From Dongia deserti (GTDB lineage Bacteria; Pseudomonadota; Alphaproteobacteria; Dongiales; Dongiaceae), in NCBI RefSeq assembly GCF_003574735.1, contig NZ_QORW01000003.1, positions 1-64,000 on the forward strand: 64,000 nt of DNA, written 5' to 3'. Every line of letters begins with the position of its first letter. Positions within the stretch are counted from its first letter, which is position 1. Below are positions 35,978 through 61,548 of the stretch, one piece after another. Under the pieces are notes generated by a model. The model had not been told where the DNA came from, searched no databases, and saw only the letters and a program-made list of their open reading frames with translations. Made by a program: the position numbers and the translations under genes.

Positions 35978-36027
35978 GAATGTGGTCCCTTCCTCCCGCC
36001 GAGGCGGCCGACAAACCGAGCGTCCGT

Positions 36028-36205
36028 TGAGGTCTCCTGGCTTGATCGCGGGACTTTGGTCGCGCCTTCCCAGCCTGAAAGGCCAGTGGCCGATGCGCCG
36101 TCCTTGATTCCGCCGGAGTGCGGCGGGCGATCCTACAGTTGCGGGGGCAGCGCCGGATTTACGCCTCTGACCTTTGCGCGCACCGGCTTCCCTCACGACG
36201 GACAA
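36028..36205 (-). promoter_or_regulatory. Cobalamin (AdoCbl) riboswitch upstream of cobP
   Basis: On the minus strand the conserved boxes come in the right order: GGGAAGCCGGTG (36181-36192), CTGCCCCCGCAACTGTAGG (36132-36150), GCCACTGG (around 36083-36090), GGCTGGGAAGG, and the 3' box AGCCAGGAGACCT (36030-36042). The cobP ribosome-binding site lies about 35 bases further on, beside a GC-rich stem. No U-tract follows, so control of translation is more likely than termination. It should repress cobP-cobW-cobN-cobO when B12 is plentiful. Confidence 0.95.
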
Positions 36206-36452
36206 GCGGACCATAGCGGAGAGATCGGCCGCTTTCCATCCCTCTTGATCGGGCCTCTGGCAAGCGGAGCAAGACGCCCAGTAGGATCAACTAACCATCG
36301 GATTTGTCACGCTTTTGGCTGGTCGCCAGCACTCCTGCCACGTTCCGCGGAAAAGCTCAAAATCACACACCCCAATATCAAAGATGCGTCATCCGGCGAT
36401 CTGGAAAGGCGGCTGTACCCTGCCAACATTCTTTTCTGTCGCTGCGTCGACT

Positions 36453-54683: not shown

Positions 54684-55835
54684 ATGGCGTTGCATTTCTC
54701 GGAATCGGAACTGGCGGCGCGGCGCGAGCGCGCGGTCGTGCTGATGCAGAAGCGCGGGCTCGATGGCCTGCTGATGTTCCGGCAGGAAAGCATGTACTAC
54801 CTGACCGGCTACGACACGTTCGGCTATGTCTATTTCCAATGCCTCTATCTCGGCGCCGACGGCAGGCTCATGCTGCTGACCCGCATGCCGGATCTGCGTC
54901 AGGCCGAGAACACCTCCGACATCAAGGACATCCGCATCTGGATCGACGCACCCAATGCCGACCCCTCGGCCGAACTGCGCGAGTATCTGCGGACCTTCGG
55001 CCTCGCCGGCAAGACGCTGGGAGTCGAATGGGAAGCCTACGGCCTCACCGCCCGCGGCGGCATGCGGCTGCAGGCGGCGTTCGACAGCTTTGCCGATCTG
55101 CAGGATGCCTCGGATCTCGTCTCGCGCCTCCGATTGGTCAAGAGCCCGCAGGAGATCGCGTATGTGCGAGAGGCCGCGCACCTCGCCGACCTGGCGCTGG
55201 ACGAAGCGCATCGCTTGACCAAGCCCGGCGCCGACGAGGGCGAGATCCTGGCCGCGATGCAGTCGATCATCATCCGAAATGGCGGCGACGATTCGGCCAA
55301 TGAGTTCATCATCGGCTCGGGCCCGGACGCCCTGCTCTGCCGCTACAAGACGGGGCGGCGCAAACTCGACGCGCAGGATCAGCTGACGCTCGAGTTCGCC
55401 GGCGTCTATCGCCACTATCATTCCTGCCTGATGCGCACGATTCCCGTCGGCAAAGTGTCGCGGCGCCAGATCGAGATGCACAAGGTCGCGGTCGAGGCGC
55501 TCGAAGCCTGCAAGGCAGCGCTGAAGCCCGGCCGTCCGATCGGCGCGGTGTTCGACGCGCACGCGCGCGTGCTGGATGCCGCCGGCTATCGCCAGCACCG
55601 CATGAACGCCACCGGCTACAGCCTCGGCGCCACCTTCGCGCCGAACTGGATGGATTGGCCGATGTTCTATCACGGCAACAGCGAGCCCGCGGCGCCGGGA
55701 CAGGTCTACTTTATCCACCTCATCATCTTCGACAGCGAGCACGGTCTCGCCATGACCAGCGGGCAGACCGTGCTGGTCAACGAAACCGGATGTGAGGCGT
55801 TATCCCAGCGCTCGCTGGAGCTGGTCGTGCGGTAG
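54684..55835 (+). CDS. M24 (creatinase/aminopeptidase P) family protein lacking the usual metal ligands
   Basis: A 383-residue pita-bread-fold protein with a creatinase-type N-terminal domain (GLDGLLMFRQESMYYLTGYD) and an M24 C-terminal domain. At the five ligand positions of prolidases it has Glu237, Cys248, Tyr312, His345 and Glu367 instead of Asp, Asp, His, Glu and Glu. Only the last is kept. Creatinase and ectoine hydrolase (DoeA) are metal-free relatives, so a hydrolase acting on a C-N bond of a small molecule is plausible. Substrate unknown. Confidence 0.82.
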   Translation: MALHFSESELAARRERAVVLMQKRGLDGLLMFRQESMYYLTGYDTFGYVYFQCLYLGADGRLMLLTRMPDLRQAENTSDIKDIRIWIDAPNADPSAELREYLRTFGLAGKTLGVEWEAYGLTARGGMRLQAAFDSFADLQDASDLVSRLRLVKSPQEIAYVREAAHLADLALDEAHRLTKPGADEGEILAAMQSIIIRNGGDDSANEFIIGSGPDALLCRYKTGRRKLDAQDQLTLEFAGVYRHYHSCLMRTIPVGKVSRRQIEMHKVAVEALEACKAALKPGRPIGAVFDAHARVLDAAGYRQHRMNATGYSLGATFAPNWMDWPMFYHGNSEPAAPGQVYFIHLIIFDSEHGLAMTSGQTVLVNETGCEALSQRSLELVVR

Positions 55836-55837
55836 CG

Positions 55838-56644
55838 TTAGCCTCGGCCGTCCATCGAATTGCGCTGACCGCTGACCACCAGGGCCCGCGCCGAAAGCTC
55901 AAACGAGCCATCCGACCGGATATTCTGCAGCTTCTTTCGATAGAGCCGTTCGAGCTCGCCGCCGGACTCGCGGTCGAGCTGAGCCGCAAAGGCGGAAAAC
56001 GGCGTGGCACTGGACCTGAACGGCAACCAGAACTCCTCGAAGGATCGGAACGGCATCCGGAATTCGAGATGCGCGGTCCTGACATTGGACAGTCCTGCCT
56101 TCATCCATCGTCTCGAGAATTCCTCGAGGTCGGCATTCCGGAGCGGCCGCGCCTTGGCCTGGTAGCCGGCGACTTCGTCCGGCGCCAACGCGGTCGCTGC
56201 TTCCCAGAACATCGCCATCATGGGCATTCCGCCGCGGAAGTCCCACTGGCAGGCCGCGACCCGGCCAAACGGCCGCGTCACGCGCACCATCTCGCCGATG
56301 GACCGATCGGGCTCGGCAAATTCCTGCAGCACCAGAAGGCCCAACGTTGCGTCGAATACGCCGTCCGGAAACGGTAACGCCTCTACGGAACCGACTTGAA
56401 ACTCGGCGCGCGAACTACTCGCCCGCCGCGCAAATGCGATGAAGCTCTCGACTGGGTCCACGCCGGTGATTCGGATGGTTCTCCCGTCTGCCAAGGCGGC
56501 ACGCGCCAGCACGCCCGTTCCGCAGCCAACATCGAGAATGTGTTGCCCATCCTCGAGACCCGCGAAGCGCAGGAACAGCGGAGCCAAGCGCGCGCTCCAG
56601 CGCCCCATGAATGCTTCATAGCCTTCGGGGTCGGAGTAGCTCAT
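55838..56644 (-). CDS. Class I SAM-dependent methyltransferase
   Basis: A 268-residue methyltransferase. The SAM site is HILDVGCGTGVLARAAL, with GVDPVESFIAFAR, GSVEALPFPDGVFD and the LVLQEFAEPDRSIGEMVRV helix (parts). The product resembles UbiE/Methyltransf_11-type enzymes. Its start overlaps the stop of the ArsR-rhodanese gene by four bases, so it is translated with that regulator. Substrate unknown; a sulfur-, selenium- or arsenic-related acceptor fits the context (inference). Confidence 0.85.
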   Translation of the reverse strand: MSYSDPEGYEAFMGRWSARLAPLFLRFAGLEDGQHILDVGCGTGVLARAALADGRTIRITGVDPVESFIAFARRASSSRAEFQVGSVEALPFPDGVFDATLGLLVLQEFAEPDRSIGEMVRVTRPFGRVAACQWDFRGGMPMMAMFWEAATALAPDEVAGYQAKARPLRNADLEEFSRRWMKAGLSNVRTAHLEFRMPFRSFEEFWLPFRSSATPFSAFAAQLDRESGGELERLYRKKLQNIRSDGSFELSARALVVSGQRNSMDGRG

Positions 56645-57324
56645 AGGCGCTGTGTGGTGGTTTCCACCGGCAATCCGGCGGCGCGCCATTCCGGCAGTCC
56701 GTCCTGCAGGCGCCGGACCTTGAAGCCGCGCGCCCTGAGCAGCGCGACCGCTTCATAGGACAGGACGCAGTAGGGGCCGCGGCAATAGGCGACGATCTCC
56801 TTGGATTTGTTGAGCTTGGTCAGGCGCCGCTCCAGCTCGCCGAGCTGCACATTGAGCGCTCCGGGCAGATGACCCAGCGCGAACTCGTCGGCCGGCCGGA
56901 CGTCCAGAACGGTGACCAGCCCCAGCTTCATACGCTCCAGGAGCTCGGCACGCGAAACCGGCTCCATGCTGTCGCGATCGTTGAAATAGCCGCGCACCAC
57001 GCGATCGACTTCGGCGAGGTTACGCTCCGCGACGCGCTGGATCGCGGCGAGCAGATCGAGGACCGAATCATCGGTCAGCCTGTAGAAAACGAACTTCCCG
57101 TCGCGCCGCCCGCTCACCAGGCCCGCCTGGCGCATGTGCTGCAAATGCTGGGACGCGTTGGCGATCGACAGATGAACACGGTCGGCAAGCAGTTCCACGC
57201 TGCGCTCGCCCTGTGCGAGTTGCTCCAGCAAGGCGAGGCGATGGGGGTGCGCCACCGCCTTCGCGACGGCAGCGAACTGCGCGAACAGGGCCTGTTTCGG
57301 ACTCTCGCTTGACTTCTGAGTCAT
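56641..57324 (-). CDS. ArsR-family regulator fused to a rhodanese domain
   Basis: A 227-residue two-domain protein. Residues about 10-100 are an ArsR winged helix (VAHPHRLALLEQL, HLSIANASQHLQHM, GRRDGKFVFYRL). Residues about 120-220 are a rhodanese domain with LDVRPADEFALGHLPGALNV and the active loop AYCRGPYCVLSY (Cys181, Cys186). These are the only cysteines, so any thiol sensing must be in the rhodanese part. It heads a two-gene unit and is divergent from the hydroxylase gene. An inverted repeat lies 12 bases before its start. Confidence 0.93.
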   Translation of the reverse strand: MTQKSSESPKQALFAQFAAVAKAVAHPHRLALLEQLAQGERSVELLADRVHLSIANASQHLQHMRQAGLVSGRRDGKFVFYRLTDDSVLDLLAAIQRVAERNLAEVDRVVRGYFNDRDSMEPVSRAELLERMKLGLVTVLDVRPADEFALGHLPGALNVQLGELERRLTKLNKSKEIVAYCRGPYCVLSYEAVALLRARGFKVRRLQDGLPEWRAAGLPVETTTQRL

Positions 57325-57335
57325 ATCATTCCATC

Positions 57336-57355
57336 ATTCAACAGATTTATTGAAT
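57336..57355. promoter_or_regulatory. Inverted repeat ATTCAA-N8-TTGAAT, candidate ArsR operator
   Basis: Perfect arms ATTCAA (57336-57341) and TTGAAT (57350-57355) are separated by eight bases. The site lies between the divergent ArsR-rhodanese gene (start 57324) and the hydroxylase gene (start 57397). AT-rich ATTC...GAAT-type repeats are typical of ArsR-class sulfide/persulfide regulators such as BigR. Binding here would repress both directions. Confidence 0.6.
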
Positions 57356-57396
57356 AATGCGCTGATCGCCTGCCCTCGTCAAGCGCTGTGGAGCCG

Positions 57397-58245
57397 ATGA
57401 CCTGGACCGAAACATTGCTCGCGCATGAAGCCGCGATCCGCCTCGGTGCCTTTGCCGGCGTGTTCGTCGCCATGGCGGCCTGGGAGCTGTTGGCGCCCAA
57501 GCGCCGCCAGACGATCGGACGCCTGCGTCGCTGGCCAGGCAATCTTGGCATCGTCGTTCTGAACACGGTGCTCATCCGTATCATCTTTCCCGTCGCGGCG
57601 GTGGGCACGGCGATCGCCGCAGCAGCGCACGATTGGGGACTGTTCAACTGGCTGCCGGTACCAACCTGGCTCGCGGTGATCGCATCCGTCGTCCTGCTGG
57701 ACCTCGCCATCTATCTGCAGCACGTCCTCGTCCACGCGGTGCCCGCGCTCTGGCGGCTGCATCGCATGCACCATGCCGACCTCGAGTTCGACGTGGCCAC
57801 GGGAGCGCGCTTCCATCCGCTGGAGATCGCCTTGTCGATGGTGATCAAGATCGGGATCGTGGCGGCACTCGGGGCACCGGCGGTCGCCGTGCTGCTCTTC
57901 GAGGTGGTGCTGAATGCCACGTCGATGTTCAATCACGGCAATGTGCGGCTCGCGCCGTGGCTTGACGGCGCACTGCGCAAGATCGTCGTCACGCCCGACA
58001 TGCACCGCGTTCACCACTCGGTCGTGCCGCGCGAAACCAACAGCAACTTCGGTTTCAATCTGTCCTGTTGGGATCGCCTGTTCGGCACCTACCGCGCAGC
58101 GCCGGCAGCGGGCCATGACGGAATGACGATCGGAATCGAGCAGTTTCGCAACCCGCGCGAGCTTCGGCTGGATCGGATGCTGATTCAGCCGTTCCGTGAC
58201 GATGACCGCCTTTATCCCCTCGGACGCCGGGAAAACGCGACATGA
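57397..58245 (+). CDS. Sterol desaturase / fatty acid hydroxylase superfamily protein
   Basis: A 282-residue diiron membrane enzyme. Histidine boxes are HVLVH (HxxxH), HRMHH (HxxHH) and HRVHH (HxxHH) in the expected order, with NHGN between. Hydrophobic segments are at about residues 10-30, 50-75 and 88-112. Members hydroxylate or desaturate lipids with O2. The ATG at 57397 is chosen; a GTG at 57388 is possible. Its stop overlaps the next start by four bases. Substrate unknown. Confidence 0.87.
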   Translation: MTWTETLLAHEAAIRLGAFAGVFVAMAAWELLAPKRRQTIGRLRRWPGNLGIVVLNTVLIRIIFPVAAVGTAIAAAAHDWGLFNWLPVPTWLAVIASVVLLDLAIYLQHVLVHAVPALWRLHRMHHADLEFDVATGARFHPLEIALSMVIKIGIVAALGAPAVAVLLFEVVLNATSMFNHGNVRLAPWLDGALRKIVVTPDMHRVHHSVVPRETNSNFGFNLSCWDRLFGTYRAAPAAGHDGMTIGIEQFRNPRELRLDRMLIQPFRDDDRLYPLGRRENAT

Positions 58246-59240
58246 CCCGGTGGAGCGTCTTTCTCCGCCTTCTGCTCGCGCTGGCCGTGGCAGGCGGCGC
58301 AGTCTTGTTGGCGGTCTATCGGGACCGCTTCGATCCAGCACTCATCGAGCAGGCAATTGTCGCGATCGAGCCCTGGGCGCCACTCGCGCATGTCCTGCTC
58401 TTCACGATCGCGACTGTGCTCTTCGTGCCCGGTGCGATCGTCGGTCTTGTCGGCGGCGTCTTATTCGGGCCGGTGTGGGGGACCCTTTTCAACCTCGTCG
58501 GCGCAACCCTCGGCGCGACGGCTGCCTTCCTGACGGCGCGCTACATCGCGTCCGACTGGGTCAGGCGCAAGGCGGGCGGACGGCTTCAACGGCTGATCAC
58601 CGGGGTCGAGGAGGAAGGCTGGCGCTTCGTCGCGTTCGCTCGGCTCGTACCGCTGTTCCCGTTCAATCTGCTCAACTACGCGTTTGGCCTCACACGCATC
58701 CGGCTCCTGCACTATGTCATCGCCTCTCTGGTCTGCATGTTTCCGGGAACGCTGGCATACACGTGGCTGGCCTATGCCGGACGCGAGGCGCTCGCAGGAC
58801 ATGACACGGCTATCCGCTACGGGCTGATTGCGCTTGCGCTGTTGGCCGCCATCGCCTTTGCGCCGCGCATCATTCGCCGTATTCGATCACGCATGCCGTT
58901 CCGCTGGATGGATGCGGCCGAGCTGTCGGGCGAGATCGATCATCTCCAGCCGACAATCATCGACGTACGCGGAGCGGACGAATTCGTGGGGCCGCTGGGG
59001 CACATTCCCGGCGCCCGTAACGTGCCTGTCGGAGAGTTGCCACGGCGGCTGCACGAGCTCTCCGCGGTTAGAGATCGTCCGATCGTCTTGGTTTGCCGGA
59101 CCGACAAGCGATCAGCCAGCGCGGCTGCCTTGCTTCACGATGCGGGGTTCCGCGATCTTCGCGTCCTGCGGGGCGGCATGGAGCAATGGGACAGGCACGG
59201 GTTCAACATTGCAGACCGGAACGCTCCCGTTGCGGCATAG
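58242..59240 (+). CDS. TVP38/TMEM64-family membrane protein fused to a rhodanese domain
   Basis: A 332-residue fusion. Residues 1 to about 215 form the DedA-like TVP38/TMEM64 part with the motif FVPGAIVGLVGGVLFGP, then FARLVPLFPFNLLNYAFGL and about six membrane segments. Residues about 223-325 form a rhodanese domain: IIDVRGADEFVG, HIPGARNVPV, active Cys285 in LVCRTDKRSASAA, and VLRGGMEQW. The rhodanese faces the cytoplasm if the basic RRIRSR linker is inside. It is coupled to the hydroxylase gene and is followed by a cysteine desulfurase, so persulfide transfer is likely. Confidence 0.92.
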   Translation: MTRWSVFLRLLLALAVAGGAVLLAVYRDRFDPALIEQAIVAIEPWAPLAHVLLFTIATVLFVPGAIVGLVGGVLFGPVWGTLFNLVGATLGATAAFLTARYIASDWVRRKAGGRLQRLITGVEEEGWRFVAFARLVPLFPFNLLNYAFGLTRIRLLHYVIASLVCMFPGTLAYTWLAYAGREALAGHDTAIRYGLIALALLAAIAFAPRIIRRIRSRMPFRWMDAAELSGEIDHLQPTIIDVRGADEFVGPLGHIPGARNVPVGELPRRLHELSAVRDRPIVLVCRTDKRSASAAALLHDAGFRDLRVLRGGMEQWDRHGFNIADRNAPVAA

Positions 59241-59291
59241 GGGAATATCCCACGCTGGAATCCGACAAGGTCATGACGCTTTGAGGTCCAT

Positions 59292-60419
59292 ATGACGCCG
59301 ATCTATCTGGACTACAACGCCAGCACGCCGATCGATCCTTCGGTAGCTGCAGCGATGCGGCCCTTCCTGGAGGACGCTTTCGGCAATCCGTCAAGCGGCC
59401 ACTGGGCGAGCATGCCGGCCAAGGTTGCGTTGGAAACAGCCCGGGGCCAAGTGGCGGCGCTCCTTGGTTGCGGGGCTGATGAAATTATCTTCACCAGCGG
59501 CGGAAGCGAAGCCAACAATCTCGCGCTCAAGGGCATCTTCTTTGCGAACAGGCACAAGGGCGATCACATTATCACCAGCCAGATCGAGCACCCCGCGATT
59601 CTCGGTCCCTGCAAGTTCCTGGAGCGGCTGGGCGCGCGGGTGACCTATCTACCCGTCGATGGCAGCGGCCGGGTGGACCCCGACCACGTGCAGCGCGCGA
59701 TCGTGCCCGGCACGATTCTGATCTCCGTCATGCATGCCAACAACGAGGTCGGCACGATCCAGCCGATCGACAAGATCGGGCGCATCGCACGCGAGCACGG
59801 AATCCTGCTCCATACCGATGCCGCGCAGTCGGTCGGCAAGATTCCGACCAAGGTCGACGCGCTGAACATCGATCTCCTGACGATGGCGGGGCACAAACTC
59901 TATGCCCACAAGGGGGTTGGCGCCCTCTACGTCAAGCGAGGGATCGAGCTCGAACCACTGATCCATGGCGCCGGGCACGAGCGCGGCCGGCGCGCCGGGA
60001 CAGAGAGTGCGCTGCTGGCCATCGGTCTCGGTGCGGCTTGTGCCCTGGTCGAGGACCTCGCACCGATGGCGCGTGTCCGGGCTCTGCGCGATCGGCTCTG
60101 GGAGGGACTGAACCGACAGTTCGGCGACGGGGTCGTCCTGAATGGTCACCACGAGCATCGTCTGCCCAACACGCTGAACGTTGCCTTCAGCGGCAAGATC
60201 GGCGCCGAGCTGCTACAGCGGCTGGATGGCCTTGCGGCATCAACGGGCTCGGCGTGCCATGCCGGACGCATCGAGCTCTCCCCGGTCTTGAAGGCCATGG
60301 GCGTACGCCCCGAGATCGGCGGCGGCGCAATCAGATTCAGCCTCGGCCGCAGCACGACGGAAGCCGAGATCGACCAGGTGCTGAAGCGTTTGGCCGACGA
60401 ACTGAAGCCGGTCGCCTGA
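59292..60419 (+). CDS. Cysteine desulfurase (NifS/IscS family)
   Basis: A 375-residue PLP enzyme that removes sulfur from cysteine and holds it as a persulfide. It begins IYLDYNASTPIDPSV. PLP-binding Lys202 is in TMAGHKLYAHKG, and the persulfide Cys322 is in ASTGSACHAG. The longer Cys loop of group I is present. There is no isc or suf gene nearby, so it probably serves the rhodanese proteins next to it. Third gene of the hydroxylase-TVP38/rhodanese-desulfurase operon. Confidence 0.93.
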   Translation: MTPIYLDYNASTPIDPSVAAAMRPFLEDAFGNPSSGHWASMPAKVALETARGQVAALLGCGADEIIFTSGGSEANNLALKGIFFANRHKGDHIITSQIEHPAILGPCKFLERLGARVTYLPVDGSGRVDPDHVQRAIVPGTILISVMHANNEVGTIQPIDKIGRIAREHGILLHTDAAQSVGKIPTKVDALNIDLLTMAGHKLYAHKGVGALYVKRGIELEPLIHGAGHERGRRAGTESALLAIGLGAACALVEDLAPMARVRALRDRLWEGLNRQFGDGVVLNGHHEHRLPNTLNVAFSGKIGAELLQRLDGLAASTGSACHAGRIELSPVLKAMGVRPEIGGGAIRFSLGRSTTEAEIDQVLKRLADELKPVA

Positions 60420-60479
60420 GCGAAGACGAGAAGGCAAGCGATGGCCGACAACGCGTGGCGGCGCGTGCCTGGCTGCGCT

Positions 60480-61313
60480 CTAGGCCTTGATCGGAATCCA
60501 GATCTCCAGGCCGCCGTTGCCGGTCCTCGGATCGAACTCCTCGCCGTAGCGTTCGAAATCCGGGCCGTCGACGACCTCGTGGCCGGATTCGGGCAGCCAT
60601 TTACTCCAGATCGTGTGCATCGTCCGGCGGATGGCCGAGATGTGATCGCGATGGCGGAACACAGCGTAGCGCTGCGGCGCGATGCGCAGGCGCGCGAACT
60701 CCGGCGGCACGTCGCTGAAGTCAGAGATCTCGACGCCGCAGACGTAGTCGAAGTTGCCGGACTCATCGGCATTGCAGCGGACGCCATAGGCGACCTTGCC
60801 GACCTGTCCCGGAATATTGTCGATGTGCGGCCCGAAACGCTGCCACTGCGCCGGAATCGCCTTGCTGGATTCGCAGGTGTAGCGCTCGCTCAAGCCCACG
60901 ATCAGCAGCGGCTTGCCGTTCTCGAAGCGCGGCGCATCCAGTTTCGCCATCAAGGTCTCATCCATTTTGATCGCCTCCACGAGCGGAAGATTGCCGAGAT
61001 GGCCTTGCGCGCGGACCTGCTCCGGCGTGCAGCCGAACTGGTCCCGGAAGGCCCTGGTGAATGCCTCGTGAGAGCCGTAGCCCGATGCGAGCGCGACCTG
61101 GAGAATGTCGGCCGCCCCGTTGGTCAGGGACCGCGCCGCCTCGGTCAACCGGCGGGCGCGCATGTAGCGCATCACCGAATGGCCGGTGGCATCCCCGAAA
61201 GCCCGGGTCAGGTGGTAGCGCGAGACGCCCGCCACGCCGGCGACATCGTCAAGCGTCATCTCGCCACTGAAGTGGCTTTCGATGAACCACAGGGCCTTTC
61301 CGATCGGGTCCAT
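60480..61313 (-). CDS. AraC-family regulator with GyrI-like effector domain (Rob-type)
   Basis: A 277-residue regulator. The AraC DNA-binding domain is N-terminal (residues about 5-105): MTLDDVAGVAGVSRYHLTRAF and ILQVALASGYGSHEAFTRAF mark its two helix-turn-helices (each part of one domain). The C-terminal half is a GyrI-like domain from about residue 125, ending GGLEIWIPIK. This layout is seen in Rob, which senses small hydrophobic compounds. It is convergent with the cysteine desulfurase gene. Confidence 0.92.
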   Translation of the reverse strand: MDPIGKALWFIESHFSGEMTLDDVAGVAGVSRYHLTRAFGDATGHSVMRYMRARRLTEAARSLTNGAADILQVALASGYGSHEAFTRAFRDQFGCTPEQVRAQGHLGNLPLVEAIKMDETLMAKLDAPRFENGKPLLIVGLSERYTCESSKAIPAQWQRFGPHIDNIPGQVGKVAYGVRCNADESGNFDYVCGVEISDFSDVPPEFARLRIAPQRYAVFRHRDHISAIRRTMHTIWSKWLPESGHEVVDGPDFERYGEEFDPRTGNGGLEIWIPIKA

Positions 61314-61548
61314 AGCAGCCTCATGTCAGCACGGGCTCACTCTCGCCCGCCCGCGTGCCGCCCGCTTGATCGGTCTTGCGCAATCGGCATTGTTTCGGCA
61401 GCCGGTTTGCAGGAACGGAATGGCGGTCCGGCCGAGTCGCGCGGACCGGCCATAAACCAGTATAGATCATAGGCTTAGTACTCATATCCCGACCCCGCCA
61501 AAGGCATTGCCAGCCCGTCATCGCGCTGTTACATTCCGCGCGCTTTTC

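Follow-up and report, generated by a model that had tools for sequence, protein, structure and literature searches.

In Escherichia coli, the ArsR protein YgaV is paired with YgaP, a membrane rhodanese. Known persulfide-sensing ArsR repressors carry a cysteine pair in their winged-helix core (PMC10509353), and such a pair, whose alpha2 member is C41 in SqrR, marks the BigR, SqrR and SoxR sensors (PMC10451225, PMC10509353); the ArsR superfamily network of PMC10509353 omitted proteins of more than 150 residues. Fusions of DedA/VTT membrane proteins with rhodanese domains are also known, in some COG0586 members and as PA1209 of Pseudomonas aeruginosa (PMC10127716, PMC12893004), and their link to undecaprenyl phosphate is called unclear in PMC10127716 (these and the other papers are cited here from parts of their text). 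The locus described here lies in a 64-kb stretch of Dongia deserti DNA (contig NZ_QORW01000003.1, positions 1 to 64,000; hereafter the window), where an ArsR-rhodanese regulator faces genes for a FA_hydroxylase-family membrane oxygenase, a VTT-rhodanese protein and a cysteine desulfurase. Judging from sequence, we consider it moderately likely that this is a sulfane-sulfur-responsive divergent operon, in which an ArsR-rhodanese repressor with relocated sensing cysteines would control a lipid- or membrane-directed effector. The domains of the locus are individually common; the unusual thing is their joint control. The features are, in window coordinates:

55838-56644, minus strand: class I SAM methyltransferase, joined to the ArsR-rhodanese regulator by an ATGA overlap; accessory
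56641-57324, minus strand: putative ArsR-rhodanese repressor, 227 residues, with ArsR helix-turn-helix (HTH) and rhodanese domains; loop CRGPYC
57309-57337, plus strand: promoter-like site TTGACT-17-CATCAT, directed at the hydroxylase operon; its second hexamer (57332-57337) reaches the operator
57336-57355, no strand assigned: candidate operator ATTCAA-N8-TTGAAT, with perfect 6-bp arms
57354-57382, minus strand: promoter-like site TTGACG-17-CATTAT, towards the regulator; its second hexamer (57354-57359) meets the operator
57397-58245, plus strand: FA_hydroxylase-family (diiron-type) membrane oxygenase, 282 residues; boxes HxxxH, HxxHH and HxxHH conserved
58242-59240, plus strand: VTT (TVP38/DedA) membrane protein with C-terminal rhodanese; loop CRTDKRS (C285)
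59292-60419, plus strand: NifS-like cysteine desulfurase, 375 residues; Aminotran_5 domain, C322 in STGSACHAG, GHK motif

The domains, coordinates, cysteines and spacing given in an earlier sequence-only reading of this DNA are all present among the open reading frames and their Pfam and NCBIfam matches, and so are the ATGA overlaps it had noted (methyltransferase/regulator at 56641-56644, hydroxylase/VTT-rhodanese at 58242-58245) and the perfect inverted repeat between the divergent arms. By eye, the ATG at 57397, with GGAG ahead of it, is a preferable hydroxylase start to the GTG at 57388.

The regulator occurs in 16 and the hydroxylase in 150 of 385 alphaproteobacterial genomes surveyed (matches of each at E<=1e-25). 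In nine of the 16 (G000, G150, G102, G108, G238, G326, G252, G200 and G043) the hydroxylase gene lies, by coordinates, divergent from the regulator within 0.2 kb. The refuting condition given with the sequence-only reading, a neighbourhood restricted to this genome, therefore does not hold. The next gene after the hydroxylase encodes a VTT-rhodanese in four genomes (G000, G102, G238 and G252) and matches a stand-alone rhodanese in G108; in G043 the hydroxylase itself has a C-terminal rhodanese. Matches to the VTT-rhodanese query reach the rhodanese end in G000, G238, G252 and G356, in the last case on a contig other than that of the regulator and hydroxylase match. Eighty further loci, the best 80 of 583 from named-genome scans for AYCRG[PA]YC and the ANxSQHL motif, are labelled mostly as Alpha-, Beta- and Gammaproteobacteria, and once or a few times as Magnetococcia, Myxococcia, Cyanophyceae and Actinomycetes (73 of the 80 ranked; metagenome bins may be mislabelled). 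The locus set totals 97 regulator loci, of which 95 regulator sequences differ; the names of their genes rest on similarity to the window proteins or to cluster representatives, Pfam and NCBIfam having been applied to the representatives alone. No strong regulator match was found in the 16 genomes of the genus and family nearest to the window (best, 5.7e-12), so that the distribution is patchy.

Plasmids also carry the regulator, in 74 of 72,556 plasmid records at E<=1e-30, and among the 30 listed of these 74 it is annotated as a plain ArsR/SmtB metalloregulator in 23 and not at all in 7. Plasmids of Roseibium aggregatum bear the regulator and a VTT-rhodanese match. Among six plasmid copies inspected, the regulator occurs with the hydroxylase and a VTT gene on a Roseibium plasmid, with the hydroxylase on a Thioclava plasmid, with MBL, MFS, SHOCT, DsrE, desulfurase and methyltransferase genes on a Methylocystis plasmid, with MBL and MFS on an Acidithiobacillus plasmid, and with MFS on Phaeobacter and Paracoccus plasmids. 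Near plasmid copies there are methyltransferases in L202, a copper ATPase in L203, merA and RND efflux genes in L206, and FTR1 and cupredoxin genes in L207.

The inverted repeat recurs with the regulator. Scored as matches out of 12 to ATTCAA-N8-TTGAAT in 96 loci (L188 is excluded because its upstream sequence is too short), it reaches 11-12 upstream of the regulator in 77, versus 2 of 1,920 shuffled stretches (20 single-base shuffles per upstream stretch, which preserve base composition but not dinucleotides). Five of six plasmid loci have all 12 matches and the sixth has 9. Scanning of 55,800-61,400 (5.6 kb) for promoters recovered two sites, one per strand and mutually facing, with 0.6 expected from shuffles, and the second hexamers of both meet the repeat at 57336-57355, so that one repressor dimer could shut both. 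Among the 94 loci with an operator-like site of at least 9 matches, a TTGAC of the divergent operon points into the operator from 19-28 bases away in 76, the placement expected if a repressor covers the -10 of that promoter; a TTGAC of the regulator itself is present in 39, both in 30, and one pointing the wrong way in 4. In the window, the first codons of the regulator hold one -35 hexamer.

Three matches with at most one mismatch occur in the 6.1-Mb genome to which the window belongs: the window locus, a paralogous regulator and one further site, which lies between LysR-like and ABC-transporter-like genes (named by eye) and is probably there by chance. A genome-wide regulon under this operator was rejected, only two regulator loci and one probable chance site being found. 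The paralogous ArsR-rhodanese (L031, 7841-8494 on contig C7) is 62% identical, has a variant operator and is divergent from an MFS gene; beside it are genes resembling RtcR, a Ro60/TROVE protein and RtcA (by eye) and RtcB (Pfam, a fragment). Control of hydroxylase genes without an adjacent regulator by the same operator was likewise ruled out, as none of 27 such genes has 10 or more matches and the best has 9; these 27 loci are among the best hydroxylase matches, and three of them are in genomes with a regulator elsewhere (G181, G252 and G025).

The sole cysteines of the window regulator are C181 and C186, both in the rhodanese loop CRGPYC. They are invariant in all 17 sequences from a whole-protein search that made no use of this motif, an unbiased figure, and are present in 97 of 97 regulators overall, a figure biased because 80 loci were chosen partly by the motif. 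At the alignment position of the alpha2 cysteine of SqrR, 92 of 97 regulators have Glu (the alpha5 Cys falls outside the aligned stretch), and the HTH domain is free of Cys in the window protein and in 80 of the 97; the BigR/SqrR/SoxR-type pair is thus absent, and the sulfurtransferase loop offers another one. The regulator scores 80.8 bits against NCBIfam HTH_metalloreg (cut-off 55), placing it in the ArsR/SmtB family, and 67.7 bits against the BigR equivalog, below the cut-off of 155. PF00581 rhodanese domains were recognised in the regulator and in the VTT fusion with 65 and 70.7 bits (cut-off 22.2), with loop cysteines C181 and C285, respectively. The AlphaFold model of the regulator has a mean pLDDT of 85.8, with fairly confident domains joined by a linking helix (residues 87-117). 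An arsenate-reductase type (Cdc25-like) loop was considered for its rhodanese and rejected, since CRGPYCV is without the CX5R arginine that marks loops of this type.

Genes on the divergent side were counted in 82 loci, 15 of the 97 having been dropped for less than 2.5 kb on that side. The hydroxylase is the most frequent (37), followed by DsrE (28), MFS-a (26), VTT (23), MBL (23), rhodanese (22), desulfurase (16), SHOCT (12), MFS-b (10), SQR (2) and DUF2938 (2). The 23 VTT genes occur with a hydroxylase in 22 cases and with a rhodanese match in 20, and 21 of the 22 rhodaneses accompany a hydroxylase. With rhodanese, desulfurase, DsrE, MBL and SQR taken as sulfur classes, a sulfur-class gene is found in 58 of the 82 divergent operons, 27 of the 37 with hydroxylase and 31 of the 45 without. 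The last figure strengthens the sulfane-sulfur part of the sensing function put forward in the sequence-only reading; its mention of selenium or arsenic gains no such support, metal-like clusters being few. Of the five-family set that it described, a recurrent regulatory module stands, but the five genes do not usually occur together: the desulfurase is optional (16 of 82 loci), and in just one of 96 other loci (L105) is the regulator followed by a gene closely matching the methyltransferase.

The MBL has as its best PDB matches 3tp9 (MBL-rhodanese) and 3r2u, followed by further MBL proteins, among them ETHE1 and the rhodanese fusion BpPRF, and it scores under the GloB and Blh cut-offs; "CstB/persulfide dioxygenase (PDO)-like" is a label of this analysis. 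The SQR representative (L165) reaches 246.6 bits against a type III SQR cut-off of 525, and a similar gene is present in L103. A DUF2938 membrane protein faces the regulator in L110 (Pfam and tblastn) and L033 (tblastn), an arrangement that may help to find out what DUF2938 does.

The window hydroxylase matches PF04116 (FA_hydroxylase) with 94 bits (cut-off 31). Across 33 sequences, H109/H113, H122/H125/H126 and H206/H207 are invariant and H203 almost invariant. Its sole NCBIfam match, to OlsE (NF052566), reaches 91.3 bits, far under the cut-off of 475. A PDB sequence search with it found no relative up to E=1, and the top Foldseek matches were 4zr0 and 4zr1 (yeast Scs7p), with probabilities of 0.18 and 0.13 from a model that is weak around several histidines. 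The tree does not separate hydroxylases that have an adjacent regulator from those that do not, and a clade of their own for those of sulfur loci was rejected (at least 9 label changes, 3 of them forced by strong branches). Among 48 regulator-linked hydroxylases there is a single fusion, a gene of L032 (7917-9083) encoding FA_hydroxylase and rhodanese, divergent from the regulator. Coupling of the hydroxylase to the VTT gene by ATGA or GTGA is seen in 16 of 26 loci; L083 and L086 have a hydroxylase without adjacent regulator and a more distant VTT. The VTT-rhodanese itself scores 85.5 bits against PF09335 (cut-off 33.9) and its sequence looks TVP38-like (COG0398), a group that, according to the part of PMC10127716 cited, lacks the acidic residues and one or both of the basic ones at the re-entrant tips. 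The desulfurase matches Aminotran_5 with 249 bits and the NifS equivalog TIGR03402 with 443 bits, below its cut-off of 530.75. Both C322, which we take to be the catalytic Cys, and GHK, presumably the pyridoxal phosphate (PLP)-lysine motif, are present in its sequence.

Two cassettes replace each other opposite the regulator. Hydroxylase and MBL occur together in none of the 82 divergent operons, with about 10 expected if they were independent (Fisher p 3.4e-8, relatedness ignored), and their labels switch at least 9 times on the regulator tree, where strong branches force at least 5 changes per label (9 of the 97 loci, with less than 1.5 kb on the divergent side, are left out). Both cassettes can accompany DsrE and desulfurase. 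The window genome has no MBL of the CstB/PDO-like kind at E<=1e-12; among the 16 regulator-bearing genomes a close form (68-76% identity) is found in G181 and G367 alone, facing the regulator there, and weaker matches in G043, G326, G200, G081, G238 and G314. These patterns suggest that the hydroxylase (with VTT-rhodanese) and the PDO-like enzyme (with MFS) may meet the same need, and the hydroxylase and PDO families both use iron and O2. They also favor a rival explanation, that hydroxylase and VTT-rhodanese form a sulfane-sulfur disposal enzyme, a diiron oxygenase burning persulfide or lipid-borne persulfide in replacement of the iron enzyme PDO. We hold this to be doubtful: the exclusion is partly structural, because both genes usually occupy the same first position; the Fisher test takes no account of relatedness; L143 has both genes around its regulator, the MBL (with MFS) being divergent from it and the hydroxylase lying on the regulator's side; four of the nine hydroxylase-type genomes hold weaker MBL matches; and the hydroxylases, intermixed as they are, belong to a family known for lipid oxidation. 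Slightly more doubtful is a fuller version in which a persulfide sensor switching through its fused-rhodanese loop would control a membrane diiron oxygenase and VTT-rhodanese that do the job of PDO at the membrane; were it true, lipid-soluble or membrane-borne sulfane sulfur would be oxidised by the oxygenase pair.

Metal or metalloid resistance, with a regulator sensing Cu, Hg, As, Te or Se via CRGPYC and an operon repairing membrane and Fe-S damage, could be argued from the placement of the regulator in HTH_metalloreg, from the plasmid copies that adjoin merA and RND efflux, copper P-type ATPase or FTR1 genes, and from the desulfurase and SHOCT genes, which would suit Fe-S repair. It is improbable in our judgement, as an HTH domain without Cys offers no usual ArsR cysteine site and the metal-like clusters recognised by eye are few (RND efflux in 7, copper ATPase in 5 and mercuric-reductase-like in 4 of 97 loci) against sulfur classes in 58 of 82. 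That the neighbours are unrelated house-keeping genes, brought together by coincidence in one genome, is scarcely credible. It draws on the weak best regulator match in the genus and family genomes, in two of which (G006 and G014) ArsR-like and rhodanese-like matches adjoin, weakly; the same operator and order recur in distant genomes, however, and this recurrence, together with the operator statistics, led us to reject chance or a one-genome artefact.

In favor of the regulated sulfur module stand the divergent pairing, the recurrent operator with its opposed promoter-like sites, the sulfur-class genes, the PDB matches of the MBL, the L032 fusion, the invariant CRGPYC cysteines and the ATGA or GTGA coupling. 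The intermixing of hydroxylase copies on the tree and the 27 copies examined for which no sulfur neighbour was found lead us to prefer an effector that would act on lipids or the membrane and be controlled by sulfane sulfur. A dimer of the ArsR-rhodanese would bind ATTCAA-N8-TTGAAT on the -10 hexamers of the two opposed promoter-like sites, repressing its own gene and the methyltransferase on one side and the hydroxylase, VTT-rhodanese and desulfurase on the other. C181 of the fused rhodanese would take up sulfane sulfur (persulfide or polysulfide), probably bridging to C186, and the change would travel via the long helix that links the winged helix to the rhodanese, so that the repressor releases the DNA. 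Once derepressed, hydroxylase and VTT-rhodanese may mount a joint membrane response, oxygen-dependent and probably lipid-directed, while rhodanese domains, desulfurase and, where present, DsrE would process sulfane sulfur or pass it on. Both the inducer and the chemistry of the effector are inferred.

Several observations weigh against this model. Operator-like sites reach just 8-10 matches in 19 of 96 loci, none of the five sulfur classes is represented on 24 of 82 divergent sides, and MBL ranks as one of these classes through its CstB/PDO-like resemblance alone. The placement of the regulator domains relative to each other is unreliable in the AlphaFold model (pTM 0.51). As a producer of sulfane sulfur, a desulfurase would be an unexpected member of a detoxification regulon, and the merA and RND pump, copper ATPase or FTR1 genes next to plasmid copies leave room for a metal or thiol-reactive inducer. 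Also, no rhodanese or desulfurase match was found near the 27 hydroxylases without an adjacent regulator, no neighbour cluster occurs in more than three of these loci (top 14 clusters), and a hydroxylase and a VTT gene without rhodanese match are paired, by coordinates, in G135, G208 and G300. The chemistry of the hydroxylase therefore need not concern sulfur; hydroxylase and VTT may be an older membrane pair, which acquired a rhodanese chiefly in loci that have the sulfur regulator.

Beyond the locus, an AraC-type regulator with a GyrI-like domain (60480-61313) converges on the desulfurase gene and has a weak match in L193 alone among 96 other regulator loci. A cobalamin riboswitch (36009-36217, minus strand, 79 bits) is the sole Rfam match in the window at gathering scores.

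The locus ties an uncharacterised hydroxylase and VTT-rhodanese, annotated as lipid or membrane proteins, to sulfur stress, and gives context to DedA-rhodanese fusions; its defined operator makes the question of the inducer directly testable. The statement of the sequence-only reading that it knew of no described system with this gene set agrees with searches of open-licence PMC papers (subscription papers and preprints lie outside them), in which neither an ArsR-rhodanese regulator class nor such a gene set was found, and the module looks like an apparently undescribed response to reactive sulfur, recurrent across many proteobacteria. Compared with BigR, SqrR, SoxR, YgaV and HlyU, it shares the ArsR winged helix, a repressor beside rhodanese, PDO or SQR genes and the sulfane-sulfur logic, as far as the parts cited of PMC10509353, PMC10451225 and PMC12423496 describe them. 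Unlike BigR and SqrR, the window regulator is without the alpha2/alpha5 cysteine pair, all of its cysteines being in the fused rhodanese loop; this ArsR branch appears to have shifted sensing into a fused sulfurtransferase, and the length limit of the network in PMC10509353, as given in the part cited, kept it out of view. YgaV and YgaP are both among the solved-structure relatives found, yet here the regulator has a rhodanese of its own, the membrane rhodanese taking the form of a VTT fusion beside a hydroxylase. The ornithine-lipid hydroxylase OlsE is the nearest named family for that hydroxylase, well below cut-off, and the CstB/Blh persulfide dioxygenase operons give the suggested function of the alternative MBL cassette, which is not in the window. 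From the described DedA-rhodanese fusions, finally, the VTT-rhodanese differs in being operon-linked to a FA_hydroxylase and an ArsR-rhodanese.

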